DNA of 64,000 nt from Corallium rubrum (taxonomy: Eukaryota > Cnidaria > Anthozoa > Scleralcyonacea > Coralliidae). Below the pieces are notes generated by a model. The model worked only from the letters and a program-made list of their open reading frames with translations, did no database searches and was not told where the DNA came from. Position 1 is the first letter of the stretch. Every line of letters starts with the position of its first letter. Both the position numbers and the translations under genes were made by a program. The stretch is from contig OZ036005.1 in assembly GCA_964035015.1 (NCBI GenBank), positions 4,065,714 through 4,129,713 on the forward strand, in the 5' to 3' direction. Below are positions 2,630-51,500 of the stretch, in pieces.

Positions 2630-3890
2630 CCATCATGATCTTCAGACCATTACTATGATCTTCAGACCATCACTATGATCATCACTATATGATCTTCAGA
2701 TCATTACTATGATCTTCAGACCATCACTATGATCTTCAGACCATCACTATGTGTTCTTCAGACCATCATGATCTTCAGACCATCATTATGATCTTCAGAC
2801 CATCACTATGATCTTCAGACTATCACTATGATCTTCAGACCATCACTATGATCTTCGGACCATCACTATGATCTTCGGACCATCACTGTGATCTTCAGAC
2901 CATCACTATGATCTTCAGACCATCACTATGATCTTCAGACTATCACTATGATCTTCGGACCATCATTATGATCTTCAGACCATCACTATGATCTTCAGAC
3001 TATCACTATGATCTTCAGACCATCACTATGAACTTCAGACCATCATTATGATCTTCAGACCATCACCATGATCTTCAAGCCATCACTATGATCTTCAGAC
3101 TATCACTATGATCTTCAGACCATCACTATGATCTTCAGACTATCACTATGATCTTCAGACCATCACTTTGATCTTCAGACTATCACTATGATCTTCGGAC
3201 TATGACTATGATCTTCGGACCATCACTATGATCTTCGGACCATCACTATGATCTTCAGACCATCACTATGATCTTCAGACCATCACTATGATCTTCAGAC
3301 CATCACTATGATCTTCAGACTATCACTATGATCTTCAGACCATCACTATGATCTTCGGACCATCACTATGATCTTCGGACCATCACTGTGATCTTCAGAC
3401 CATCACTATGATCTTCAGACCATCACTATGATCTTCAGACCATCACTATGATCTTCAGACCATCACTATGATCCTCAGACCATCACTATGATCTTCAGAC
3501 CGTCACTATGATCTTCAGACCATCACTGTGATCTTCAGACCATCACTATGATCTTCAGACTATCACTATGATCTTCGGACTATCACTATGATCTTCAGAC
3601 TATCACTATGATCTTCGGACTATCACTATGATCTTCGGACCATCACTATGATCTTCGGACCATCACTGTGATCTTCAGACCATCACTATGATCTTCAGAC
3701 CATCACTATGATCTTCAGACTATCACTATGATCTTCAGACTATCACTATGATCTTCGGACCATCATTATGATCTTCAGACCATCACTATGATCTTCAGAC
3801 CATCACTGTGATCTTCAGACCATCACTATGATCTTCAGACTATCACTATGATCTTCAGACCATCACTATGATCTTCAGACTATCACTATG
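2630..3890 (+). repeat. 20-bp minisatellite, left block
   Basis: About 60 tandem copies of ATGATCTTCAGACCATCACT occur, with frequent C/T (ACCATC/ACTATC), A/G (CAGAC/CGGAC) and ACTATG/ACTGTG variants. The array resumes in the same orientation at 9996, so it was one array before the 3891-9995 insertion. It is preceded by a CATGACCAT-rich stretch (2560-2630). Confidence 0.97.
3885..3890. other. Target site duplication, left copy (ACTATG)
   Basis: ACTATG immediately precedes the element's AGTAGATAAC end and is repeated exactly at 9996-10001 after the TTATCTACT end. Removing the element plus one copy restores a normal 20-bp repeat unit. Confidence 0.9.
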
Positions 3891-3899
3891 AGTAGATAA

Positions 3900-3918
3900 C
3901 CCCCCCCCCCCCCCCCCC
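3900..3918. repeat. Homopolymer C run at left terminus
   Basis: Nineteen consecutive C lie just inside the AGTAGATAA end. The mirror run in the right arm (9971-9986) is G with one A interruption and is slightly shorter. The run is part of the terminal repeat. Confidence 0.95.
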
Positions 3919-3959
3919 ATACAGCGTACAAAGGGATGCCGCCTCATTAAATATTCGGT

Positions 3960-4311
3960 ATGATGCACGGTATGATGCACGGTGTGACGCCCGGTGTGAC
4001 GCCCGGTGGTGTGACGCCCGGTTGTGTGACGCCCGGTGGTGTGACGCCCGGTGGTGTGACGCCCGGTTGTGTGACGCCCGGTGGTGTGACGCCCGGTGGT
4101 GTGACGCCCGGTGGTGTGACGCCCGGTGGTGTGACGCCCGGTGGTGTGACGCCCGGTGGTGTGACGCCCGGTGGTGTGACGCCCGGTTGTGTGACGCCCG
4201 GTGGTGTGACGCCCGGTTGTGTGACGCCCGGTGGTGTGACGCCCGGTTGTGTGACGCCCGGTGTGACGCCCGGTGGTGTGACGCCCCCGTGTGACGCCCG
4301 GTGTGACGTCC
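3960..4311 (+). repeat. 15-bp GC-rich minisatellite, left arm
   Basis: Tandem GTGACGCCCGGTGGT units occur with GGT/TGT variants and some 10-bp partial units (GTGACGCCCG). The unit length is a multiple of three, so open frames run through it (VTPGG or CDARW). No independent evidence of translation exists. It is mirrored at 9577-9930 with a slightly different unit order. Confidence 0.95.
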
Positions 4312-4620
4312 GGAATTAATTATTCTGTGTTGCGATTATAAAAAGGAGCATAAACCTATAGTTCTCCTCACTTTAACTACAGTGTTTACACTTAGCTATC
4401 TCGGAGTTTGCGGTATATTGTTGGATAGAGACTTTTTTTGGAAACCGTGTCTCGATGAGTATAGAGAGTTTTGGGCAGCCTAAGTGTCTGAATTGGCAGA
4501 GCTCGTATAGACTCAGATTAATAGCATACATGAATATTATATCAGTTTAGAACTTAAACGGCCAAACAGTTCTTTACCCATTTACTTGGACATATGTGCC
4601 GAATTGTCGCTTATTTGGCT

Positions 4621-4818
4621 TTAGTTTATGAAGTAAACGATGCCTTGAATGAAGAAACCGTTCGGCAAGCTGTTGAAAAGACATTGAAACACTTTCTTCA
4701 GATAAACGGCTGACTCGGCTATTTTATTAACGTCGTCAAGCATCTTGTTAATGTTGCTACGGCTGATATTTGCATATTTATCCTCAGTGCACGTGCAGGA
4801 GACAAAAGAAAAACTCAT
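4621..4818 (-). CDS. Small hypothetical ORF of the palindromic element, left-arm copy
   Basis: The 65-codon frame starts MSFSFVSCTCTEDKYANISR and ends in a hydrophobic stretch (CLFNSLPNGFFIQGIVYFIN). The right-arm copy at 9073-9270 is the same length and differs at one residue (K here, N there), so the frame is intact in both arms. It is downstream of the ATPase gene and on the same strand in each arm. I recognise no domain. It could be a small gene or chance preservation in very similar arms. Confidence 0.4.
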   Translation of the reverse strand: MSFSFVSCTCTEDKYANISRSNINKMLDDVNKIAESAVYLKKVFQCLFNSLPNGFFIQGIVYFIN

Positions 4819-4925
4819 TAGGGGTCATTAAGAAGATTAAGCGCTTGGGCAAGTTTGGACGACAAGAATAACAGGAGACACTGCGTTTAAAAATATTTAT
4901 TTCACTTTACAAATATGTCATTTAT

Positions 4926-6360
4926 TTAAAACATTTTTCTTGGACTGTGATGCCGACTCCTTGTTATAGGATAAGGTCTGCTCCTGAAATCATATCTAGG
5001 TACTCTCACTTTATAAGCAATATGAGGTTCATTCCTGGGAACCATTGAGATGCGAGGGTCTTCGTCTTGACTATTATTGACTGTTGTTTCATGTGAATCT
5101 TCATCAGAAGAATTTTGATATTTATCATTTTCTTGACGACCATAGTCATCTGAGTCGGCTTCCGAAACTTCTTCGTCCGAGTCGTTTTCTCCTGAATCAC
5201 TTTCATCTCCAGTTATCCATTTTTGCAAAGGTTTCGGCTTTAGGTATTCAACAGTCGGAGGAGGAAATAGAAAATATGGTTTAGGCACGCTAAGTCCAGA
5301 CGGAGGATTTAACAGGCTATGTTCAGGTTGTTCAGGTTTTTGCGGGGGTCTCTGTCAAGTTTTGTATAACTTTTAGTAACTGTGTTTGAAGATTAGTTTG
5401 AATTTGATTCTGCTGGTTCTGCAGCTGTTGTTGGAATGTCAGAAAACGCTCGAGTTGATTAGAGTATAGGATGTTCTTTTCATCGGGTGTTAATTGTGGT
5501 GTTTGTACAATATCTTGCATTAGCTGTTCTGTATTGTACATAGCGTTGACGATCGGAGGTTGCTGATACGATTTCTTTTGAATATATCTGCTTATGTTCT
5601 GCTGCAGAACGGAGCTATTTTCGTCAGGTAAAACATTGGTCTTGAGGCGATGATCGTCATCCGTAGTCGGTTTCAGATCAAGCATTAAATACCCATGAGG
5701 GCGACTTGTGGCTTCCTCGTAGCTCTTCATAAACTCTTGAACATGTCCAGGATTCACTTGTCGTGCCAAAATAGAAATTTGCTGCTTATCCCTTGGAGAC
5801 TTGAAGAGTACGATATAGTGTGCGTTGAGACTGATGTTTCTGGTTTCCTTTCCTTGATGAAATATATTCTGAACAATATAGATCACGGAGAGATTCCTGT
5901 GATGACTGCCCCTTGTAAATAAACTAGCAATACGTTTATCTCCCCCTGATTGATCCATAAGATCATCTAGGACAATAAGGTTTCGCCTCGAAACATCAAG
6001 AAAATCTTCCGAGTCGATGTTAGTAGGTATTCCTTCATTCAGTTCAATGCCCGGTATAGTCTTGATCATCTCAAGATACATGGGTTGCCACTGGCCATAA
6101 CACCAAATGATACGTTCAGGAGGAGGATTAATCGTAGTTTTGGCGTTTTCCAGAAGAGTTTTTACCCATACGGTTTTACCACTCTGAGTACACCCTGCAA
6201 CAATGCACGTAAATGGATGCTGCAGGACTGTGGATCCATTGACGAGAGGAAATGCTTGTCGTATTTGTTTTGTCGATGATCTATGAACCATCTTCATGTG
6301 ACGGAGGAGATTACTTGAATTAGCGAAAGATTTTCCACAAACTTCACAAACGTAGGACAT
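4926..6360 (-). pseudogene. Packaging ATPase, left-arm copy, frameshifted
   Basis: This is the inverted duplicate of the intact gene at 7532-8965. The first 342 codons (6360 down to 5332) keep the C2H2 finger, Walker A and Walker B. One extra G in a G run near 5343-5348 then shifts the frame, giving an early stop. The remaining C-terminal 120 codons (acidic region and basic tail) lie in another frame at 4926-5288. Four substitutions cluster within about 35 bp of the indel. Upstream of it the protein is identical to the right-arm copy as far as I can read. A truncated ATPase with both nucleotide-binding motifs could still be made, but the shift makes this copy look broken. The damage is recent relative to the duplication. 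Confidence 0.85.
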
Positions 6361-6429
6361 GTTTCAGGTATGACGGTCAGATAAGTAATGAATAATTTTC
6401 TATTAGCCAACCTTGTTCATAGTGATTCA

Positions 6430-7455
6430 ACACAACAGTCCTAAGACTATATAGTCCTAAATCCTAAGACTATATAGTCCTAAATCCTAAGACTATACTC
6501 CTAAGTCCTAAGACTATAGTCCTAAATCCTAAGACTATAGTCCTAAGTCCTAAGACTATAGTCCTAAGTCTATATATAGTCCTAAGACTATATAGTCCTA
6601 AGACTATATAGTCCTAAGACTATATAGTCCTAAGACTATATAGTCCTAAGACTATATAGTCCTAAGACTATATAGTCCTAAGACTATAGTCCTAAGACTA
6701 TATAGTCCCTAAGACTATAGTCCTAAGACTATATAGTCCTAAGACTATAGTCCTAAGACTATAGTCCTAAGACTATATAGTCCTAAGACTATATAGTCCT
6801 AAGACTATATAGTCCTAAGACTATAGTCCTAAGACTATATAGTCCTAAGACTATAGTCCTAAGACTATATAGTCCTAAGACTATATAGTCCTAAGACTAT
6901 ATAGTCCTAAGACTATATAGTCCTAAGTCCTAAGACTATAGTCCTAAGACTATATAGGCCTAAATCCTAAGACTATATAGTCCTAAATCCTAAGACTATA
7001 GTCTTAGGATTTAGGACTATATAGTCTTAGGATTTAGGACTATAGTCTTAGGATTTAGGACTATATAGTCTTAAGATTTAGGACTATATAGTCTTAGGAC
7101 TTAGGACTATAGTCTTAGGATTTAAGACTATAGTCTTAGGATTTAGGACTATATAGTCTTAGGACTTAGGACTATAGTCTTAGGATTTAGGACTATATAG
7201 TCTTAGGATTTAGGCCTATATAGTCTTAGGACTATAGTCTTAGGACTTAGGACTATATAGTCTTAGGACTATATAGTCTTAGGACTATATAGTCTTAGGA
7301 CTATATAGTCTTAGGACTATAGTCTTAGGACTATAGTCTTAGGACTTAGGACTATAGTCTTAGGATTTAGGACTATAGTCTTAGGACTTAGGAGTATAGT
7401 CTTAGGATTTAGGACTATATAGTCTTAGGATTTAGGACTATATAGTCTTAGGACT
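6430..7455. repeat. AT-rich minisatellite spacer with central inversion
   Basis: Tandem CCTAAGACTATATAGT-type units (11-17 bp, some with CCTAAAT) run from about 6430 to 6998. The inverse (ATAGTCTTAGGATTTAGG) runs from 6999 to about 7453. The turning point is GACTA|TAGTC at 6998/6999. The left half is about 110 bp longer than the right, a copy-number difference. The region lies between the two divergently transcribed ATPase copies, so it would hold both promoters. Confidence 0.95.
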
Positions 7456-7531
7456 GTTGTGTTGAATCACTATAAACAAGGTTGGCTAATAGAAAATTAT
7501 TCATTACTTATCTGACCGTCATACCTGAAAC

Positions 7532-8965
7532 ATGTCCTACGTTTGTGAAGTTTGTGGAAAATCTTTCGCTAATTCAAGTAATCTCCTCCGTCACATGAAG
7601 ATGGTTCATAGATCATCGACAAAACAAATACGACAAGCATTTCCTCTCGTCAATGGATCCACAGTCCTGCAGCATCCATTTACGTGCATTGTTGCAGGGT
7701 GTACTCAGAGTGGTAAAACCGTATGGGTAAAAACTCTTCTGGAAAACGCCAAAACTACGATTAATCCTCCTCCTGAACGTATCATTTGGTGTTATGGCCA
7801 GTGGCAACCCATGTATCTTGAGATGATCAAGACTATACCGGGCATTGAACTGAATGAAGGAATACCTACTAACATCGACTCGGAAGATTTTCTTGATGTT
7901 TCGAGGCGAAACCTTATTGTCCTAGATGATCTTATGGATCAATCAGGGGGAGATAAACGTATTGCTAGTTTATTTACAAGGGGCAGTCATCACAGGAATC
8001 TCTCCGTGATCTATATTGTTCAGAATATATTTCATCAAGGAAAGGAAACCAGAAACATCAGTCTCAACGCACACTATATCGTACTCTTCAAGTCTCCAAG
8101 GGATAAGCAGCAAATTTCTATTTTGGCACGACAAGTGAATCCTGGACATGTTCAAGAGTTTATGAAGAGCTACGAGGAAGCCACAAGTCGCCCTCATGGG
8201 TATTTAATGCTTGATCTGAAACCGACTACGGATGACGATCATCGCCTCAAGACCAATGTTTTACCTGACGAAAATAGCTCCGTTCTGCAGCAGAACATAA
8301 GCAGATATATTCAAAAGAAATCGTATCAGCAACCTCCGATCGTCAACGCTATGTACAATACAGAACAGCTAATGCAAGATATTGTACAAACACCACAATT
8401 AACACCCGATGAAAAGAACATCCTATACTCTAATCAACTCGAGCGTTTTCTGACATTCCAACAACAGCTGCAGAACCAGCAGAATCAAATTCAAACTAAT
8501 CTTCAAACACAGTTACTAAAAATTTTACAAAATTTGACAGAGACCCCACAAAAACCTGAACAACCTGAACATAGCCTGTTAAATCCTCCGTCTGGACTTA
8601 GCGTGCCTAAACCATATTTTCTATTTCCTCCTCCGACTGTTGAATACCTAAAGCCGAAACCTTTGCAAAAATGGATAACTGGAGATGAAAGTGATTCAGG
8701 AGAAAACGACTCGGACGAAGAAGTTTCGGAAGCCGACTCAGATGACTATGGTCGTCAAGAAAATGATAAATATCAAAATTCTTCTGATGAAGATTCACAT
8801 GAAACAACAGTCAATAATAGTCAAGACGAAGACCCTCGCATCTCAATGGTTCCCAGGAATGAACCTCATATTGCTTATAAAGTGAGAGTACCTAGATATG
8901 ATTTCAGGAGCAGACCTTATCCTATAACAAGGAGTCGGCATCACAGTCCAAGAAAAATGTTTTAA
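7532..8965 (+). CDS. C2H2 finger-packaging ATPase (A32/FtsK-HerA type), intact copy
   Basis: This 477-residue ORF has an N-terminal C2H2 zinc finger (C5, C8, H21, H26). Walker A is GCTQSGKT (56-63), Walker B is LIVLDD (128-133), and a downstream NLSVIYIVQNIFHQG motif (156-170) fits the sensor strand of P-loop DNA-pumping ATPases. The ATPase domain spans roughly 30-240. It is followed by a Gln-rich, probably coiled stretch (about 310-350), a long Asp/Glu/Ser-rich segment (about 390-440) and a basic Arg-rich tail. Proteins of this type drive DNA into capsids in Polintons, virophages and large DNA viruses (established knowledge). A fused C2H2 finger suggests direct DNA binding (inference). The ATG is the first after the AT-rich spacer and is identical in both arms. 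A polyadenylation-like AATAAA overlaps the stop and another follows at 8990. The gene is recognised by motif, not by search. Confidence 0.85.
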   Translation: MSYVCEVCGKSFANSSNLLRHMKMVHRSSTKQIRQAFPLVNGSTVLQHPFTCIVAGCTQSGKTVWVKTLLENAKTTINPPPERIIWCYGQWQPMYLEMIKTIPGIELNEGIPTNIDSEDFLDVSRRNLIVLDDLMDQSGGDKRIASLFTRGSHHRNLSVIYIVQNIFHQGKETRNISLNAHYIVLFKSPRDKQQISILARQVNPGHVQEFMKSYEEATSRPHGYLMLDLKPTTDDDHRLKTNVLPDENSSVLQQNISRYIQKKSYQQPPIVNAMYNTEQLMQDIVQTPQLTPDEKNILYSNQLERFLTFQQQLQNQQNQIQTNLQTQLLKILQNLTETPQKPEQPEHSLLNPPSGLSVPKPYFLFPPPTVEYLKPKPLQKWITGDESDSGENDSDEEVSEADSDDYGRQENDKYQNSSDEDSHETTVNNSQDEDPRISMVPRNEPHIAYKVRVPRYDFRSRPYPITRSRHHSPRKMF

Positions 8966-8995
8966 ATAAATGACATATTTGTAAAGTGAAATAAA
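8965..8995 (+). promoter_or_regulatory. Polyadenylation signals of the intact ATPase gene
   Basis: AATAAA occurs at 8965-8970, overlapping the TAA stop, and again at 8990-8995. The left arm carries the mirror pair. They fit 3' processing of a polymerase II transcript. Confidence 0.5.
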
Positions 8996-9072
8996 TATTT
9001 TTAAACGCAGTGTCTCCTGTTATTCTTGTCGTCCAAACTTGCCCAAGCGCTTAATCTTCTTAATGACCCCTA

Positions 9073-9270
9073 ATGAGTTTTTCTTTTGTCTCCTGCACGT
9101 GCACTGAGGATAAATATGCAAATATCAGCCGTAGCAACATTAACAATATGCTTGACGACGTTAATAAAATAGCCGAGTCAGCCGTTTATCTGAAGAAAGT
9201 GTTTCAATGTCTTTTCAACAGCTTGCCGAACGGTTTCTTCATTCAAGGCATCGTTTACTTCATAAACTAA
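9073..9270 (+). CDS. Small hypothetical ORF of the palindromic element, right-arm copy
   Basis: The 65 codons lie 107 bp downstream of the ATPase gene on the same strand. The N-terminal half is polar with CTCTEDKYANISR. The C-terminal half is hydrophobic and could be a membrane-associated helix. It matches the left-arm ORF (4621-4818) except for one residue. Family unknown. Confidence 0.4.
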   Translation: MSFSFVSCTCTEDKYANISRSNINNMLDDVNKIAESAVYLKKVFQCLFNSLPNGFFIQGIVYFIN

Positions 9271-9576
9271 AGCCAAATAAGCGACAATTCGGCACATATG
9301 TCCAAGTAAATGGGTAAAGAACTGTTTGGCCGTTTAAGTTCTAAACTGATATAATATTCATGTATGCTATTAATCTGAGTCTATACGAGCTCTGCCAATT
9401 CAGACACTTAGGCTGCCCAAAACTCTCTACACTCATCGAGACACGGTTTCCAAAAAAAGTCTCTATCCAACAATATACCGCAAACTCCGAGATAGCTAAG
9501 TGTAAACACTGTAGTTAAAGTGAGGAGAACTATAGGTTTATGCTCCTTTTTTATAATCGCAACACAGAATAATTAA

Positions 9577-9930
9577 TTCCGGACGTCACACCGGGTGTCA
9601 CACCGGGCGTCACACGGGGGCGTCACACCACCGGGGGTCACACCGGGCGTCACACAACCGGGCGTCACACCACCGGGCGTCACACCACCGGGCGTCACAC
9701 CACCGGGCGTCACACCACCGGGCGTCACACCACCGGGCGTCACACCACCGGGCGTCACACCACCGGGCGTCACACCACCGGGCGTCACACCACCGGGCGT
9801 CACACCACCGGGCGTCACACCACCGGGCGTCACACCACCGGGCGTCACACCACCGGGCGTCACACAACCGGGCGTCACACCACCGGGCGTCACACCGGGC
9901 GTCACACCGTGCATCATACCGTGCATCATA
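9577..9930 (-). repeat. 15-bp GC-rich minisatellite, right arm
   Basis: This is the inverse of the left-arm array, with GTCACACCACCGGGC units on the + strand. Its units are more homogeneous than the left array and it has an extra GTGTGACACCCGG-type unit near the inner edge, so unit turnover has continued after the arms formed. Confidence 0.95.
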
Positions 9931-9995
9931 CCGAATATTTAATGAGGCGGCATCCCTTTGTACGCTGTATGGGGGGGGGAGGGGGGTTATCTACT

Positions 9996-10945
9996 ACTAT
10001 GATCTTCAGACCATCACTATGATCTTCAGACTATCACTATGATCTTCAGACCATCACTATGATCTTCAGACCATCATTATGATCTTCAGACTATCACTAT
10101 GATCTTCAGACCATCACTATGATCTTCAGACCATCACTATGATCTTCAGACCATCACTATGATCTTCAGACTATCACTATGATCTTCAGACCATCACTAT
10201 GATCTTCAGACCATCACTATGATCTTCAGACTATCACTATGATCTTCAGACCATCACTATGATCTTCAGACTATCACTATGATCTTCAGACCATCACTAT
10301 GATCTTCGGACTATCACTGTGATCTTCGGACCATCACTATGATCTTCAGACCATCATTATGATCTTCAGACCATCACTATGATCTTCAGACCATCATTAT
10401 GATCTTCAGACCATCACTATGATCTTCAGACCATCATGATCTTCGGACCATCACTATGATCTTCAGACCATCACTATGATCTTCAGACCGTCACTATGAT
10501 CTTCGGACCATCACTATGATCTTCAGACTATCACTATGATCTTCAGACTATCACTGTGATCTTCAGACCATCACTATGATCTTGAGACTATCACTGTGAT
10601 CTTCAGACCATCACTATGATCTTGAGACCATCACTATGATCTTCAGACCATCACTATGATCTTCAGACCATCACTATGATCTTCAGACCATCATTATGAT
10701 CTTCAGACCATCACTGTGATCTTCAGACCATCACTATGATCTTCAGACTATCACTATGATCTTCAGACCATCACTATGATCTTCAGACCATCACTATGAT
10801 CTTCAGACCATCATTATGATCTTCAGACCATCATTATGATCTTCAGACCATCACTATGATCTTCAGACCATCACTATGATCTTCAGACCATCACTATGAT
10901 CTTCAGACCATCATTATGATCTTCAGACCATCACTGTGATCATCA
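9996..10945 (+). repeat. 20-bp minisatellite, right block (starts with target duplication)
   Basis: About 47 more copies of the ATGATCTTCAGACCATCACT unit in the same orientation as 2630-3890, beginning with the duplicated ACTATG at 9996-10001. Variants such as CTTGAGAC occur only in this block. Confidence 0.97.
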
Positions 10946-27451: not shown

Positions 27452-28116
27452 TTAAATAGACACCCGTCGCCTACTGTACATCGTCCTATACGTTGTAAAC
27501 GTTATCTCGTCTTCAAATTGCCGCAATAGATCCGATACATAGTCTTCATCGGTTTGTTGTGTTATACCATTCGTGGACAAGCGGTGACAGTTTTCACAAT
27601 TGTCGTCCGTTCCGGGTAATAAACCGCGTTCTTTCGGTTTCGACGTCTTGTTCCGAATCTCCATCATACGTAAAACAAGCAGATTGAGAAACGACGAGGC
27701 TATTGTTAGTCCAATAAATATAAACAACATCGAGATACTAATATAGAAAATACTAAACCGTGACTCGATGCTATCTTGTAGAGCAACCATATCGCCGAAA
27801 CCTATCGTAGTCAGTGTCACAAAACAATAGTAAAACGAATGGAAATAACTCCAATGTTCGTAGTAGCTGAATATTCCAGCGCCAAAACACATTGTAATAG
27901 CCATGCCAACTAAGCCAGTGACAACCATATTGTTTGTACTAATCTCGCGTTTTTTGCCTAGCCTTCTCATCGAGATACGGTAGATGTAACGAACTAGAGC
28001 GTTAAAGCGCTCACCAATCGACTGCAGTGCTGTGATGGCAAGAGGAATTCCTATTGTGGCGTAGATCATACAAAATATCCGTCCTCTGTCTGTGCGAGGT
28101 ACCGTGTGTCCATAAC
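27452..28116 (-). CDS. TASK-type K2P channel, exon 2
   Basis: Acceptor TTGGTTGGTCAG precedes GT, which completes the split glycine codon, then YGHTVPRTDRG through the stop TAA at 27452-27454. Carries M2, M3, pore 2, M4 and the C tail. Confidence 0.93.
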
Positions 28117-29086
28117 CTGACCAACCAAGAAGAAAATATAGCATTGTCTAAGAATAATTATACGATAATGCAACCTACGATACTGTAGATTATTTCAAGT
28201 GTTTAAATGAAGAGGCCTATGTCATGATAAATTTGAAGATAATAAGGAAATCTTTGTTGTAATCGTTGAGTGCGATGTCAGTGACATTCGCTGACACATC
28301 ATCTTCGAACAAAGCTTGTATAATTAATATACATGAATACTTCGACATATATACACATTTATATATTTGTGTGTGTATACAACTCGGTATATATAAGATA
28401 ACGTTCCAGCCAATAGCAAAGTTATCTCGGAACGTTATTCCGGTTGCATGTTATCTTAATCTTTGCAACAGTATTGACTAGTGTACGGATGTACAACAGA
28501 CCACACATGAATATACACATAGTTCGTACAGAGTTATTACTGTAAAGCTAAAATTCTAGCGATTTGATGCATATATGCCTGTGGCTCTGTCGTGTTCGAT
28601 ATAACCGGTATTCTGTCAAAGCGTTTTCTTTTTCTCTGAGTTTCAAATCGAATTCGTATTTCTGTAAAAGGCAAACAAACTCGTGTTTGACGATATTACG
28701 TTGTTTGAAGTATCTAGGAATAGGGATTTGACGTGTTTTAATTTTTCGTCTCTACATATATTGGCTACGCTACGTGACTCACCGATAGTTGTAATGACGG
28801 TTGTAGCGAAGTACACCGAGCCAGCGAAACTCCACTGTTCGACATTCGAGGTCATCGTCCGTTGGTAGCGCTGGACTTCTGCCCATTTCGCAAAATCCTC
28901 TGCTGTTATGTTGTACTTGGCTTGGAAAAGGCGGAAAAGTTTCTGCGTTTCTTGTTTGCGTCTTTGATCCTCCTCGAACTCAAGAGCACTGAAAACTGCT
29001 GCTCCAACAAGAAGATAGCTAAGCGAACATATTATAAGCAGTACTGTCCGCGTTCCGTTCTCCGAAATACAACGCTTAACCATCAC
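27452..29086 (-). CDS. Two-pore-domain K+ channel, TASK-type (exons 29086-28783 and 28116-27452)
   Basis: Joining the two exons gives 322 residues containing a full K2P channel. M1 is LLIICSLSYLLVGAAVFSAL. The extracellular cap has an N-glycosylation site (NIT), at a position comparable to TASK channels. P1 is TTVITTIGYGH, M2 is FCMIYATIGIPLAI, M3 follows NMVVTGLVGMAITMCFGAG, P2 is VTLTTIGFGDMVALQ, and M4 ends LLVLRMM. The histidine right after the GYG filter is the proton sensor of TASK channels, and VLRMM corresponds to their VLRFMT motif (established knowledge). It would conduct a background K+ leak at the plasma membrane as a dimer. The short cytosolic tail (about 60 residues) ends soon after EDEITFTTYRTMYSRRR. 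Two Met codons open the frame (29086, 29083). The KCNK3/9/15 side of the family fits best, but orthology is not established, so no symbol is given. Confidence 0.93.
28783..29086 (-). CDS. TASK-type K2P channel, exon 1
   Basis: Encodes the short N terminus, M1, the cap and most of pore 1. It ends ACTATCG at donor GTGAGT, one base into the codon for the first glycine of GYG. The 666-bp intron (28117-28782) holds no recognised element. Confidence 0.92.
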
Positions 29087-29089
29087 CTG

Positions 29090-29712
29090 ACAATCATCGT
29101 CGGATGCCCCTACCTTCGAGTTGGATCGGTGAAAAACTTGCCGGGTTTTAGTTAGGAATACGCTGCTGTTGACTTGCTCTAGCGAAGTTAAGTATTCTTT
29201 TGTTGGGTCAGGGTGGCGGCAGGATACTTAAGCCGAACGGGCTTACCATTGGCTAAACACTTGGAGATAGGTCGGCAAGCAATTAACAATCGAACTGTCA
29301 TTTGTTTGGCCTTATTATTAGTTTTACAATGAAAACCGCAGCTGATGGTTGGCGATGTATTTTAATAAAGTTTCCAGAATACGCCATATCCATTATAACT
29401 CTGTTGCATGAGAACTTTTACAATGACATACTCAATCCGTCATTCTTTATATCGCCTAGCTGTCAAACTTGCTTAGGAATTGCGTCATAGCCATATATTT
29501 CCCCAAGCGGGCTACACTTATACTTATATAATTCTTATCAATGTCATTGCAACGTAAAGCCATGTCCATCAGATTTGTTTACATTTAAGTAGTGTTGTCC
29601 ATACACCGATTTCGGTGATCCCCTGTTGATGAATTGCTCAAAATTATTATTTCGCCCAAATATGCCATCTTGACTTTTCGACCAATAAACGCAAGTTTCG
29701 GCTGCCCTGCGG
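29090..29712. other. Probable upstream region of the K2P gene
   Basis: Non-coding sequence just 5' of the channel start codon. No TATA box or known motif that I can defend. Short ORFs here have no domain. Confidence 0.4.
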
Positions 29713-45500: not shown

Positions 45501-48500
45501 GTAAGGACTTGAACTTGTCAAGACTGGACTCGGCTAAATAAGACGGGGGGGGGGGGGGGGCTTTCCATTTACACGGTTAGGCCGGTCAGTCCAGTTAAAT
45601 GGAACACGGTTCGTTTGAGGCTTAGGATGGTCAGACTGGAAAATTTGGTCCTAATCAAAAGCAAGTCCAAAGCAAGTCTGGTCGGACAAAATCAAAAGCA
45701 AGTCTGGTCGGACTGACCGGTCTAACCTTGTCAATAGGCGAGTTTCAGGGTGTTGCGCACGCATCGTTTTGCAAAGGAATTGGCGGGCTCTTGGCGGGCT
45801 TCCCACAAAGTAAGCAATGACAAACAGACTTGCTAGCGAGCCAACAACAGCAGAATAACAATGTTGAACATCCAGAAACTGTATCTATACTTTGTTTACC
45901 TTCAACAGTATGTTTACTTTGAGTGGAGCTTGCCAGTTTCTTTGAAAAATGATGCGCGAGCAACACCCTGAAACTCGCCTATTGGAAAGCACCCTAGGAC
46001 TCACGTGGTCAGGACCAGTGAACTCCATATTTCCCATTCTCCCCTCAAATCTGGAACGCTAACTTCAGGTCAAAAAGTGACATCAAGCTCGATTACGTCG
46101 CCTTCAGTCCCCCTATATACGCGGCCAAGACGCGGTTCGCGTCAGGGGACTGGAAGCGACGTAATAAGTACAAAATGTGCACTTCACTTTTGAAGCGTGA
46201 CAATGACTGAAGTTAGCGTTCCAGGTATAGGGATGGATATACTGTAGGAAATGGAGTTCACTGGTTAGGACCCAATGATTCATTCACTGAGTACAGACCA
46301 AGTTCGGCAAAACTTTGCCTTATTATTTGCTTGTTTCATTCCAAAAGATTTGTCGCATTAGAGTGAAGTACAGTTAGTAATTCATTAAAGATTTAAATTT
46401 TTTGCCGTGTTTTTGTCAAAAAGTAGTGTACATGTAATTTTTCAACAATCAAGTTACGATACACTGCATGTGGGAGGTCTCCAGTTGACAAATAAAATCA
46501 TCTGCCACAGTCAAATATATATTAAAGTAAGGACAAAATGTACGATTGCCTGTTAAAGGGTAAGAGACTCCGTCTTAAACTCAACACTAGGGAGCTTAAG
46601 CAAATACAACGCGAACGTCAAGGACAACGTCCTTAATACAATAGATTTTTCCCCACACAACAAAGAAAATGAATAATTTTTAGCCCCAAGAGTAATCCTA
46701 ACGCCGTCCCCGTTCTACATACAACGTTATTCAGATCATTTTCACGTCTTCAGGACGACGGTAACTCTTGAAACGGCGAAACCTGTTAGTTGAGTTTGAC
46801 TTCAAACTGTGCGACAAAAATCCTTTTGGAACTCTGAAGCTTTTGAATGTCGGAAAACATAGTTTATGTATTCAATACTACGCAAATGATTCGTGGTTTC
46901 TGCTAGATACTGAACTTTAGATTCCCGTTGCCGTCCTAGCTTGCTTAAGCTCCCTACTACTGCTTTGTAATATCCTGAGTTCTGATTGCCAGGTGTACTA
47001 CAGTAACCTTAGCATAATTCTCATAAATTTGGTTTCCTTGCAATTTCTTTCTCAAGGCTTATTCCTTATATCAAAGGAAACATTGGTTTTGTGTTCACTA
47101 AGAATGATTTGAATGAAGTGCGTGAGGTTATCGAAAGCAACAAAGTGGGTGCTCCTGCTAAGGCTGGTGCACTTGCACCTATTGATGTGAAGATTTCTCC
47201 TGTGAACACAGGTCTGGGGCCTGAGAAGACCTCCTTTTTCCAAGCCTTGGCTATCCCAACGAAGATCACAAGGGGTACCATTGAAATTTTGGTATGTGTA
47301 AACTGTCATAATATACCCTTTATAATAATAGCCTAAGACATGGTGTATAGCGCTACTGTGGTTTTAAGTAAAAAATAGGTACGCAATGCGTACATGCGTC
47401 TACGTTTAGGGCTACGGTTACATCGTTTGCAATGACGTGACATTGGACGCCGTCTTGGTTGATGTCCGTTAATTTCAAATACCCTTGCTAAAATAAAATG
47501 ATTGTCAGCAGTGTGTCAACAGTGTTTGCCAACAGAAAGAAGCAAGGTGACGTCATGTGTAAACGATCTATTTACACAATCTGATTTTTCTCATGCCATA
47601 ACACATAACCGACTACTATAATAAGTAAATCCACATTCCTATAGTAAGTAAATCCACATTACTATAGTAAGTAAATCCACATTACTATAGTAAGTAAATC
47701 CACATTACTATAGTAAGTAAATCTACATTACTATAGTAAGTAAATCCACATTTACTATAGTAAGTAAATCCACATTACTATAGTAAGTAAATCCACATTA
47801 CTATAGTAAGTAAATCTACATTACTATAGTAAGTAAATCCACATTACTATAGTAAGTAAATCCACATTACTATAGTAAGTAAATCCACATTACTATAGTA
47901 AGTAAATCTACATTACTATAGTAAGTAAATCCACATTACTATAGTAAGTAAATCCACATTACTATAGTAAGTAAATCTACATTACTATAGTAAGTAAATC
48001 CACATTACTATAGTAAGTAAATCCACATTACTATAGTAAGTAAATCCACATTACTATAGTAAGTAAGTCCACATTACTATAGTAAGTAAATCCACATTAC
48101 TATAGTAAGTAAATCTACATTACTATAGTAAGTAAATCTACATTACTATAGTAAGTAAATCTACATTACTATAGTAAGTAAATCCACATTACTATAGTAA
48201 GTAAATCCACATTACTATAGTAAGTAAATCCACATTACTATAGTAAGTAAATCCACATTGCTATAGTAAGTAAATCCACATTACTATAGTAAGTAAATCC
48301 ACATTACTATAGTAAGTAAATCCACATTGCTATAGTAAGTAAATCCACATTACTATAGTAAGTAAATCCACATTACTATAGTAAGTAAATCCACATTACT
48401 ATAGTAAGTAAATCCACATTACTATAGTAAGTAAATCCACATTACTATAGTAAGTAAATCTACATTACTATAGTAAGTAAATCCACATTACTATAGTAAG

Positions 48501-51500
48501 TAAATCCACATTACTATAGTAAGTAAATCTACATTACTATAGTAAGTAAATCCACATTACTATAGTAAGTAAATCCACATTACTATAGTAAGTAAATCCA
48601 CATTACTATAGTAAGTAAATCCACATTACTATAGTAAGTAAATCTACATTACCTGCAGCAGCAGGAGGAAAACTGAGTTCTGATTAATCAGATCATGTGA
48701 ATGGGCATTTGGTTGAGATAATCATTAAGACACTGGCAGTATAATTAATACCTATAACATTAGAGCACATAGCAATACACCTAAACAGGAAATGACCAAT
48801 AGACGATTTTCACGATCAGGCGCAGTAGCAACAAATATTCAAATTTTCGTCGGAGATAAAAACAACTGTTTTAGCTGGAACGAGCATATTGAAAATAGTA
48901 GAAGTGCAAAGTTTGAAACAAATTGCTTAACAAATGGAAAAAGTTTCACAAGCGGAAAGTTGACCATTCCAACAGGGATTTATTAGTGATTTAATAGGGA
49001 TTTTGGCTTGGCGGGCGGGAGTTGCACGCCAAGCCAAAATCCCTATTAAATCCCTAGTGGAGAGCAAAACTTCCGAAGAGCGTAGCTTTCGCACTATTTG
49101 TCCGATTTATTTTAAACTTTGCACTTTTACTATTTTTAATATGATCTTTCCAGCTAAAACAGTTGTTTTTACCTCCAATGAAAATTTGAAGTAAAGTTGC
49201 TACTGCGCATGGGCCTGAAAGTCGTCTATTTCATTTAATAAAATACATAGTAAAAGCTTTTCAGAATGTCTGTTAATACCTGTAGGTATTTGACTAGTAC
49301 CGTAAATGTTCGATTTAGCGCCGCGGCGCTTATTAAAATTTGCAAACTTTTGGTGCGGCGCTTAATCGAGAGCGGCGCTTATTAAAAAAAGTTGACAAAA
49401 TGCCCATAACACAACTTTAATTATCCATAGAAAAACCAAATAAATTTAACCCAACAATTTTCATAATACCTAATAGCACAATAAATTCCAAAAAGAACGT
49501 CAACGTCCTGGTCATCGCCTTCTTCATTGTCGTCTATCCATAGATGTGGATCAGAGGCATCTTCGACATCTGAATCAGAGACTTCAAAGGGATTTGTGTC
49601 CGGCTCTTTTAGGACCTCGCGACCTTGACCGGCGAAAAACTCCAGTGATGTATTAAAGATATGTTGATATGTTAGCGTATCGGTTTGTGTTTTTTTGCTG
49701 ATTCATCTTTTTCGAAGGTGCGGCGCTTAATCGAGAGCGGTGCTTATTAAATTATCCTGCTTCTGGATGCGGCGCTTAATCGGGAGCGGCGCTTAATCGA
49801 GAGCGGCGCTAAATCGAACATTTACGGTATAGCATGTAACAATTTGCTACCATACCCAATGCAGAAAAAGATATCTCAAACAAACAAAGAATGAAACCAA
49901 AGAAAGAATCCAAAGATAATTATTTCCAACGGGTAAAATAGAATTCTTGACTAGAATTAAAATATATCTTCGACTAGAAAAACTAGTATTAATAATTATT
50001 GCTTGTGATGAAAGAGATCAAAGAAAAATGACAAAAAGTTCCAAGAAAATATTTGACATAAACTTGTGTACATAAAGTGGCAGGATGAAATTTCCCCCAG
50101 TTTACTACCAAAATCAGTAGAGTGTCTTTTCTGGAGGAAAAAAGGTTGTCTGGAAGGCGGTCAAACGTGTATGTTTTGTGACGTCAACGACTCAGGAATG
50201 TAGCGTGGCGTGTGAACGAATTCAACGAAATCAACGAATTCTGTTGAACAAGATGTTTTTTGAATGGCGTGTACTACAGTATCACATTCATTTTACACTA
50301 CGTTCAAAATTAACATCTTATTGAACTGAATTCGTCTATTTTGTTGTATTCGTTCATACGGCACGCGGCATTCGCGAGCCGTTGACGTCATAAAACATAC
50401 ACGTTTGGCCGCCTTCCAGACAACATTTTTTCTTCCGGAAAGGACGCACTACTGATTTTGGTAGTATCAGTTCTAGTGACGTGTCTGATCTTTTTTTTTG
50501 TTTTGTTTGTGTAGAGTGAAGTGCATTTGATCAAGAAAGATGAGAAAGTTGGTGCTTCTGAATCGACATTACTTTCCATGTTGAAGATTTTCCCTTTCTC
50601 TTATGGCTTGCAGATTAAGCAAGGTACGTCTGTCTTTTATAATTTTCATACTTAACTTTATTTTATCTTGACCCTAACTTGTGCCTACACTTTAAAGGGG
50701 TTCTCAGATAAAAATACTGTTGGCAATGTTTTTGCATAATCCTAAAGATCTTATGGTACACACGCAGGGCCGTAGATAGCGAGGGGGGGGGGGGGGGGGG
50801 GGAGAAATCCAAAATGTGATTTTTATAATGTCACACATCACATTTGTTCCCAGAATCACAGAATAAAGAACTAACAATCGTTTAATTAAAATCATAACTC
50901 TGACAATGAATTTTCGCGTTGTGTTCGCGCTTTATCCCGTTAGAGTAACTATCATTTTACAGTCACTTGCTACTCACTTTCACCAAAATGTTCGGAAGTT
51001 CGCTCCAAAGTTCGTTGGGAAGTTCAAAGCTCGTTTTAATATTTTAAACTAGGTTCCTAGTAGCCGGCAATCAATTGCCTAGTTCAAAACGAACTTTGAA
51101 CTTCCAAACGATCTTCGTAACGAACTTCTGAACATTTTGGCGAAAAGTGACAAGTAGGTTGCAAATGACTGTAGTTGTCTTTGTAAATATGTAATACTGT
51201 AGTTTTAGAAAAATCTTTTGTAAAAATGAGAGAATGTGTCTTAAAAAATATGTGTTAAAATGTTCAAAATTTTGCTCAAATACGATGTCAGATCGCGGGG
51301 AAATGCCATTTCAGAGACTCAATTTTCAAAAATTTTACCGGGGACCCCCCTAGAAATTTGGCAGTCTTACTGCCCCCCTGACTAAAAAATCCTGCCTACG
51401 GCCCTGTACACACGTAAAAATCTCACAGCTTGTCAACAGGATGTGTTCGCAACAGGCTTGTAGCAAGGCTGGGAACAAGTTGTAACAATGCTGTTCATTC

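Follow-up and report, generated by a model that had tools for sequence, protein, structure and literature searches.

How does a mobile element come to be the mirror image of itself from one end to the other, and why should it then keep a gene? This question is raised by a stretch of 64,000 nucleotides from the cnidarian Corallium rubrum (contig OZ036005.1, positions 4,065,714 to 4,129,713, hereafter the window), in which positions 3891-9995 form a palindrome with an A32-type ATPase carrying a C2H2 finger in each arm. The element is likely to be a non-autonomous Polinton (Maverick) satellite, a snap-back palindrome that would be moved by a helper and would have retained its ATPase for packaging. 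An earlier note on the window had proposed a Polinton derivative of this kind, which is supported by the presence in the same genome of a full-length Polinton (C8:47653962-47667159) that has matching ends and a C2H2-ATPase; the large family, the candidate helper, the apparently recurrent formation, the transposition as a unit and the purifying selection described here go beyond that note.

Structure and ends of the element

The element, 6,105 bp in length, is mirrored by its own reverse complement with a coverage of 100%, in a single alignment of 6,262 columns that has 94% identity with the minisatellites counted in. The unique part of the arm (4313-6430) is 99.6% identical to its own mirror, with nine differing columns, five of them grouped at 5343-5370, and the whole-element palindrome with near-identical arms that had been described earlier thus stands. 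The same is true of the exact ACTATG duplication, which is taken to be real because a 20-bp satellite of the host runs in exact phase across the element once one 6-bp copy is removed. As this satellite has the same direction on both sides, a fold-back assembly error at this locus is unlikely. The termini are AGTAGATAAC(C)n and n(G)GTTATCTACT, and the 15-mer AGTAGATAACCCCCC has two occurrences in the 64 kb, one at each end of the element (mean in shuffles 0.00).

In each arm a terminal minisatellite comes first from the end inward, then a stretch of some 0.6 kb in which a gene has decayed, then an ATPase transcribed outward and last the axis minisatellite. One ATPase per arm, as the earlier note had it, holds for the domains, with zf-C2H2 and Pox_A32 above the curated Pfam cut-off in both copies, but only the right copy is open, with its finger at residues 3-26, the left being frameshifted near 5344. 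The frame listing of the element holds no frame of at least 80 aa besides the ATPases and tandem repeats, and since neither a PolB nor an rve integrase frame lies within it, the element is not an autonomous Polinton. The features are as follows, with the strand where one applies.

2635..3890, plus strand: host 20-bp satellite (the target), left part
3885..3890: target-site duplication ACTATG, left copy (from the phase of the host satellite)
3891..9995: entire palindromic element, 6,105 bp (from mirror coverage, ends and duplication)
3891..3956, plus strand: left terminus, AGTAGATAAC, poly-C, then the 27-bp block AAAGGGATGCCGCCTCATTAAATATTC at 3930-3956
3981..4303, plus strand: terminal minisatellite, unit GGTGTGACGCCCGGT
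4558..4710, plus strand: E1B-19K/Bcl-2-like gene remnant (mirror copy at about 9181-9333, minus strand)
5332..6360, minus strand: left C2H2-finger/A32-type ATPase, frameshifted, 342 aa open
6439..6963, plus strand: axis minisatellite, unit AGTCCTAAGACTATAT, strongly self-complementary (fold z -13.6 and -9.9)
6959..7038: longest perfect palindrome at the axis, 80 bp, centre 6998/6999
6994..7453, minus strand: axis minisatellite, mirror side
7532..8965, plus strand: right C2H2-finger/A32-type ATPase, open, 477 aa
9601..9908, minus strand: terminal minisatellite, mirror copy
9933..9995, minus strand: right terminus, mirror copy
9996..10001: target-site duplication ACTATG, right copy (from flank comparison)
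9996..10945, plus strand: host 20-bp satellite, right part, orientation and phase as left

A copy of TATAAAAA at 4337-4344, with its mirror, faces inward directly inside the terminal minisatellite and ahead of the decayed E1B-19K-like gene, and differs by one A between the arms.

A full-length Polinton with the same ends

The Polinton at C8:47653962-47667159 is about 13.2 kb long, has ends like those of the window element and a CACACA duplication, and carries a terminal inverted repeat of about 180 bp. Its left end shares AGTAGATAACCC and the 27-bp block AAAGGGATGCCGCCTCATTAAATATTC with the window terminus. From the left end inward it encodes:

1: GRF zinc-ribbon protein (PF06839)
2: E1B-19K/Bcl-2-like protein (PF01691, E 0.001, below the curated cut-off)
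3: integrase, rve (5.5e-16) and Chromo
4: frames that we take for capsid proteins by resemblance (no match found)
5: S273R-like protease (after African swine fever virus; E 2.6e-05)
6, other strand: PX-like protein (presumptive name)
7, other strand: C2H2-ATPase, 277 aa, followed by a minisatellite
8, other strand: PolB in two frames (DNA_pol_B_2, 9e-47), adjoining the right end

The capsid-region frames (L054 2-1249 and L055 6124-6930) have no Pfam or PDB match, and are presumed from resemblance to be major capsid and penton proteins. In the host flanks of this Polinton, outside the element ends, there is a 230-bp inverted match of 88% (L055:3207-3435 and L054:9373-9601).

Over 41 residues the gene remnant of the window arm (4558-4710) shares 44% identity with the E1B-19K-like protein of the Polinton left end (E 1e-11 in a single comparison), so that the best reading of the arm is a left, non-PolB end fused to the ATPase. 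The proposal that only terminal sequences and the ATPase had been kept holds for the ATPase; the arm is a non-PolB end with a decayed E1B-19K-like gene and not a terminus alone. A Bcl-2 fold of the remnant by itself is unsupported by Pfam or PDB and becomes credible only via the Polinton protein. The ATPase of both elements has the same architecture, C2H2 with an A32-type domain.

The family across the genome

The genome searched comprises 474 Mb in 312 contigs, in which the window is C23:4065714-4129713. A terminal query and an arm query gave at least 42 matches each, with the best 40 scored out of 1,099 and 1,701 candidates respectively, and many of these form inverted pairs 5-13 kb apart; arm pieces on the same strand form one pair among the matches listed (C53:82767-85692). 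A first batch, the window element and 19 others taken from inverted pairs (20 stretches), has an exact 6-bp duplication in 16 of 20 elements, window included, and a second batch in 9 of 10. The totals are thus exact duplications in 25 of the 30 elements examined, with 24 distinct sequences (CACACA occurs twice), so that other palindromes with different duplications, which the earlier note had named as a check, do exist. As the elements were picked, those of the first batch from inverted pairs, and not drawn at random, these are not genome rates.

Several elements of the first batch depart from the rule. The right end of L044 was not found, the duplication of L046 matches at 5 of 6 bases, and L045 has no duplication and two ends unlike each other, for which reason it is perhaps a recombinant. 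In L048/L049 (C25:493300-506900) a bigger inverted duplication mirrors the host flanks as well (tgatcgctattg ... caatagcgatca) and holds several ATPase copies of about 65% identity to that of the window; it is either an assembly fold-back or a genuine inverted duplication. The duplications of L031, L036 and L038 lie inside a simple repeat and carry less weight. Those of C49, C20, C25:666 kb, C1:17.7 Mb, C1:25.46 Mb, C18 and the full-length Polinton were read by eye from the flanks, those of L069 and L070 by script, and the ends of L071 (C28) lie outside the range examined. L035 (C32:12974467-12980052) is a 5.6-kb element with a duplication, in which the central 2,500 bases are N. A 160-aa frame in each arm of L031 (926-1408 and mirror), also present in L035, has no Pfam match and is found in only some elements.

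The termini of L039-L043, AGTAGT, agree at 6 of 6 bases with the vertebrate motif (AGT)2//(ACT)2 given in PMC8097293, and the window terminus, AGTAGA, at 5 of 6. Outside this genome, IMG/VR gave no relative for the complete ATPase or its central part, for the end motif or a degenerate motif, or for an alignment of five sequences, and none was found in prokaryote genomes; 13 end-motif matches in IMG/VR (L001-L013) lie inside contigs and are treated as chance.

Transposition as a palindrome

L040 and L041 have unrelated flanks and different duplications, yet when one is flipped they are identical at 6,155 positions with 1 mismatch and 10 gap columns, whereas unflipped they have 113 mismatches and 122 gap columns. 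Since the two match only when flipped, and at unrelated sites, the asymmetries of one palindrome must have been copied entire, and this case shows that the palindrome can transpose as a unit. L037 and L038, which have one ATPase, behave similarly, with 3 mismatches flipped against 1,271 unflipped.

In a tree of the arms, the window element, L030, L031, L039 and L044 each have their own two arms as closest neighbours, and the arms of L040/L041 and of L042/L043 interleave as near-identical copies; the arms of L045 are 2.1% apart and one of them groups with L039. By this pattern the arms are kept alike through re-copying or exchange. Between the window group and the L039-L045 group the arm interior is common and the terminal stretch differs on both sides.

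ATPase lineages and palindromes of either end

With the window ATPase as protein query at least 90 matches came up (the best 89 of 2,400 candidates scored), all counts of ATPase matches and pairs being lower bounds. Lineage A has 92-100% identity to the window ATPase (at least 41 matches, at least 26 loci) and lineage B 67-70% (at least 48 matches, at least 43 loci), and the remaining match is a second fragment at one lineage-A locus. With the Polinton ATPase as query a lineage C was obtained, of at least 144 matches (the best 144 of 1,340 candidates) at no fewer than 111 loci, full Polintons included. Neighbouring copies within 10 kb were counted as a pair, and mirrored pairs were found at 15 of 26 scored loci in A, 5 of 43 in B and 33 of 111 in C. 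The 15 of A and the 5 of B diverge, as do 31 of C with 2 converging, which over all 53 paired loci makes 51 diverging, 2 converging and 0 tandem.

It is apparent that palindromes with two ATPases and a duplication occur in each lineage. By alignment these are the window element, L030, L031 and L039-L043 in A, L069 and L070 in B and C18 in C; C1:25.46 Mb is placed in A by its ends and ATPase pair only. C18 is 9.85 kb long, and about 0.5 kb of its left arm has no counterpart in the right. In these 12 elements the symmetry ends at the element termini and direct 6-bp duplications lie outside. L044 and L045 are also double-ATPase palindromes, with no duplication seen. L033, L034, L037, L038, L046 and L047, of lineage B, have one full ATPase between mirrored arms of about 1.2-3 kb, and in L033 and L034 this ATPase is broken. 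The PX-like gene, so named from presumed resemblance, occurs in both arms of L033, L046 and L047 and once in L037, and was not found in L069, L070 and the window element. No integrase, PolB or capsid-region frame was seen beside the ATPase in the window element, L030, L040, L042, L069, L070 and C18. At L071 (C28:8696400-8703700) a lineage-C ATPase palindrome adjoins a lineage-B ATPase, in a nested or composite element.

The opposite end of the Polinton has given palindromes too. A 12.3-kb palindrome at C49:8475191-8487475 has PolB in each arm, the arms being 99.8% identical over 5.0 kb, an unpaired centre that holds the 5' part of a C2H2-ATPase, window-type ends and the duplication GACCTC. At least four inverted PolB pairs (C49, C20, C25:666 kb and C1:17.7 Mb) were noticed among the matches listed, all with window-type ends and a duplication; of the four, C49 alone was read through its arms and the other three by ends and flanks. 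As both window-type and PolB-type palindromes are found, mirrored products of both Polinton ends exist, and in the window element and C49 the arms are mirrored to the termini, with both ends derived from one parent end.

Axes and minisatellites

Palindromes of types A, B, C and PolB (the window element, L069/L070, L072 and L050) were compared, and in all of them the axis falls within or close to a minisatellite that adjoins the 5' end of the ATPase. The axis repeat units of the four types have no BLAST match to one another, and because they are mutually unrelated the sequences argue for about four separate origins, although repeat turnover following one single origin is possible. When folded as single-stranded DNA, the A array (z -9.9 and -13.6) and the C array (-11.7) do far better than shuffles and the B array moderately so (-2.9). 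The terminal minisatellite of the window (-1.0) and three non-repeat controls (-1.5, -0.1, -1.3) fold no better than shuffles.

The number of AGT units is unequal between the two ends of one element in C8, C1:17.7 Mb and C1:25.46 Mb. Sliding-back of terminal repeats is known from protein-primed initiation, and by analogy the varying number would fit such a process.

Selection on the ATPase

In the 20 arms of 10 lineage-A palindromes, broken frames included, 34 synonymous changes on 301 sites stand against 33 amino-acid changes on 1,130 sites, a ratio of amino-acid to synonymous change (N/S) of 0.26 (P 7e-8 under equal rates), with a synonymous rate of 0.113 and a non-coding rate of 0.093. None of the 67 coding changes is nonsense. 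The ATPase of lineage-A palindromes is under purifying selection. By a simpler count N/S is 0.22 for changes private to one arm (16 against 19), 0.53 where a change is found in both arms of a single element (4 against 2) and 0.24 where it is common to several elements (10 against 11), with no difference between private changes and the rest (Fisher P 0.80). That the private changes are neutral is not borne out, their N/S being as low as that of the changes shared between elements. Between lineages A and B the ratio of nonsynonymous to synonymous rates (dN/dS) is 0.21-0.27 for open frames only.

Among the lineage-B copies compared the core (residues 48-250) has a dN/dS of about 0.01-0.11. In most pairs with different finger types the synonymous sites of finger and linker are near saturation, with 0.12-0.29 in the core of these pairs, the finger itself being just 27 codons long. 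L069 and L070 have finger and tail in common and different cores. The plainest reading of these sequences is that finger, core and tail are swapped between elements as cassettes.

Other features of the window and its surroundings

The window also contains a 23-bp minisatellite of 45 copies, 97% alike, at 47614-48652, and at 27452-29227 (minus strand) frames with an Ion_trans_2 match, presumably from a two-pore potassium channel, which points to an animal host. Two other PolB families were checked for AGTAG ends close to the start of PolB, at three places in one and at two in the other, and none turned up. The family checked at three places is abundant (C23:4250891-4252375 and 4291178-4292665, C1:68-76 Mb and small contigs) and has open frames of up to about 1,370 aa and different neighbour genes; two of its members lie 0.12-0.16 Mb beyond the window.

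Origin and spread of the palindromes

The following history would account for the satellite. To judge by gene order, a linear Polinton-like genome would first lose its middle, the non-PolB end joining the 3' side of the ATPase. The replicating strand would then fold back in the minisatellite beside the ATPase and be copied into its own complement, giving a linear palindrome in which each end may serve as a replication and integration end. A helper DNA polymerase would copy it and a helper rve integrase would insert it with a 6-bp duplication. Once formed, the palindrome can move as a palindrome, as L040 and L041 show, and selection keeps the ATPase, which most likely would drive or bias the loading of small genomes into capsids made by the helper; the apparently exchangeable C2H2 finger may set DNA specificity.

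A number of results weigh against this history. The ATPase of the C8 Polinton is only about 47% identical to that of the window, no full-length element with the window ATPase lineage was found (best 89 of 2,400 candidates scored), and no helper with ends of the L040 type (AGTAGTAATAC) was identified. The minisatellite of the C8 Polinton, common to the PolB palindrome, folds no better than shuffles (z +0.4) and the GAG array of L047 shows no structure; with folding results so mixed, self-complementary arrays may be cause or consequence. L042 and L043, a near-identical pair, fail to match as whole elements whichever way they are turned (208 and 149 mismatches), so that unit transposition rests on one double-ATPase pair together with L037/L038. 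L032 and L036 have no ATPase match and yet have duplications, which makes the ATPase dispensable in cis. As private N/S equals shared N/S, relaxation after insertion is not seen, the six both-arm changes, at an N/S of 0.53, are not below neutral, and close lineage-A pairs, with few changes, range in dN/dS from 0.1 to 1.07 (open frames only). That finger type tracks end type is not borne out among the few groups compared, and lineage-A elements of two end types have one common finger. The evidence throughout is genome sequence.

The palindromes might instead be a pure by-product, replication junk in which the ATPase is retained only through its nearness to the fold-back site. In the C8 Polinton the ATPase adjoins the minisatellite, so any left-end snap-back at the minisatellite carries it along, the ATPase-free palindromes L036 and L032 exist, and 7 of the 20 lineage-A arms lack an open frame; set against this are the purifying selection, seen between lineages and within the palindrome set with 0 nonsense among 67 changes, and the want of any integrase, PolB or capsid-region frame kept beside the ATPase in seven palindromes, and we regard this account as rather unlikely. 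A chromosomal inverted duplication, whether by host fold-back or by origin-dependent inverted amplification, or else gene conversion from arm to arm after an ordinary insertion, is improbable. It is true that the host flanks are mirrored at L048/L049 (C25:493-507 kb), that the C8 Polinton has the inverted match in its flanks, and that the near-identity of the arms in most of ten elements compared suits gene conversion, but duplication of the chromosome does not agree with a symmetry that stops at the ends in 12 double-ATPase elements, next to direct 6-bp duplications, or with the movement of L040/L041 as a palindrome.

The mirrored flanks of L048/L049 would also be what an assembly artefact from fold-back reads leaves behind, an explanation that is very improbable for the window, where the flanks are direct and in phase, and for a family in which many loci have direct duplications of their own and arm-specific differences. 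Least credible of all is that the element belongs to a different class of transposon, for instance the Foldback type, in which the whole arms are inverted repeats and the element encodes a transposase. The inverted arms with their many tandem repeats do resemble such elements, but the window element has no transposase frame and its ends equal those of the C8 Polinton; the 6-bp duplication and AGTAG ends are moreover close to those of Mavericks (PMC8097293).

The satellite reading can be carried further, to eukaryotic capsid-hijacking satellites that form recurrently as snap-back palindromes, bring their own packaging motor with a swappable specificity finger, and use helper virions and integrase. 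This extension is tentative and somewhat doubtful; if it is true, Polintons form particles in this animal. The palindromes have shed nearly all but the selected ATPase, apparently in three lineages, which is indirect genetic evidence that packaging aids spread. With at least 180 or so ATPase loci of three lineages in one genome (full Polintons included), there is a natural set on snap-back formation, end recognition and finger exchange.

Comparison with known systems

Foldback (FB) elements share long inverted repeats made partly of tandem repeats, although their duplication differs in length and they carry no viral genes. Phage-inducible chromosomal islands (PICI) and P4 are closer in strategy, small genomes that keep or bring packaging specificity and need a helper capsid, but they are bacterial with unrelated genes, and packaging of the window family is a prediction from sequence. 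A packaging gene needed in cis, as in a satellite of that type, is at odds with L032 and L036, which have duplications but no ATPase match.

The likeness to Polintons/Mavericks (adintoviruses) lies in the AGT-type ends, the 6-bp duplication and the FtsK/A32-type packaging ATPase; the window palindrome is without PolB, integrase, protease and capsid genes, and its arms are complete mirror copies, whereas the inverted repeat that lies inside the ends of the C8 Polinton measures about 180 bp. Polinton genomes include genes for capsid and packaging, but as of 2021 no extracellular form had been detected according to PMC7805220. Among the papers listed in searches of the open-licence PMC literature, subscription papers not included, no palindromic Polinton derivative was found. 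Palindromes of both ends fit linear, end-primed Polinton replication in the animal germ line.

Adenovirus and yeast linear plasmids, which are protein-primed replicons, give palindromic defective genomes that are likewise symmetric linear DNA with both ends from one end; to our knowledge these are known only as laboratory or episomal derivatives and not as transposing families with a selected gene. Adeno-associated virus (AAV) is a parvovirus with hairpin ends. As described in PMC8235507, fold-back double-stranded subgenomes (5' and 3' snap-back) arise from either end of its linear genome, which is the same relation of product to parent as here. The AAV snap-backs are particle genomes, whereas the palindromes of C. 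rubrum are germline insertions in amplifying families.

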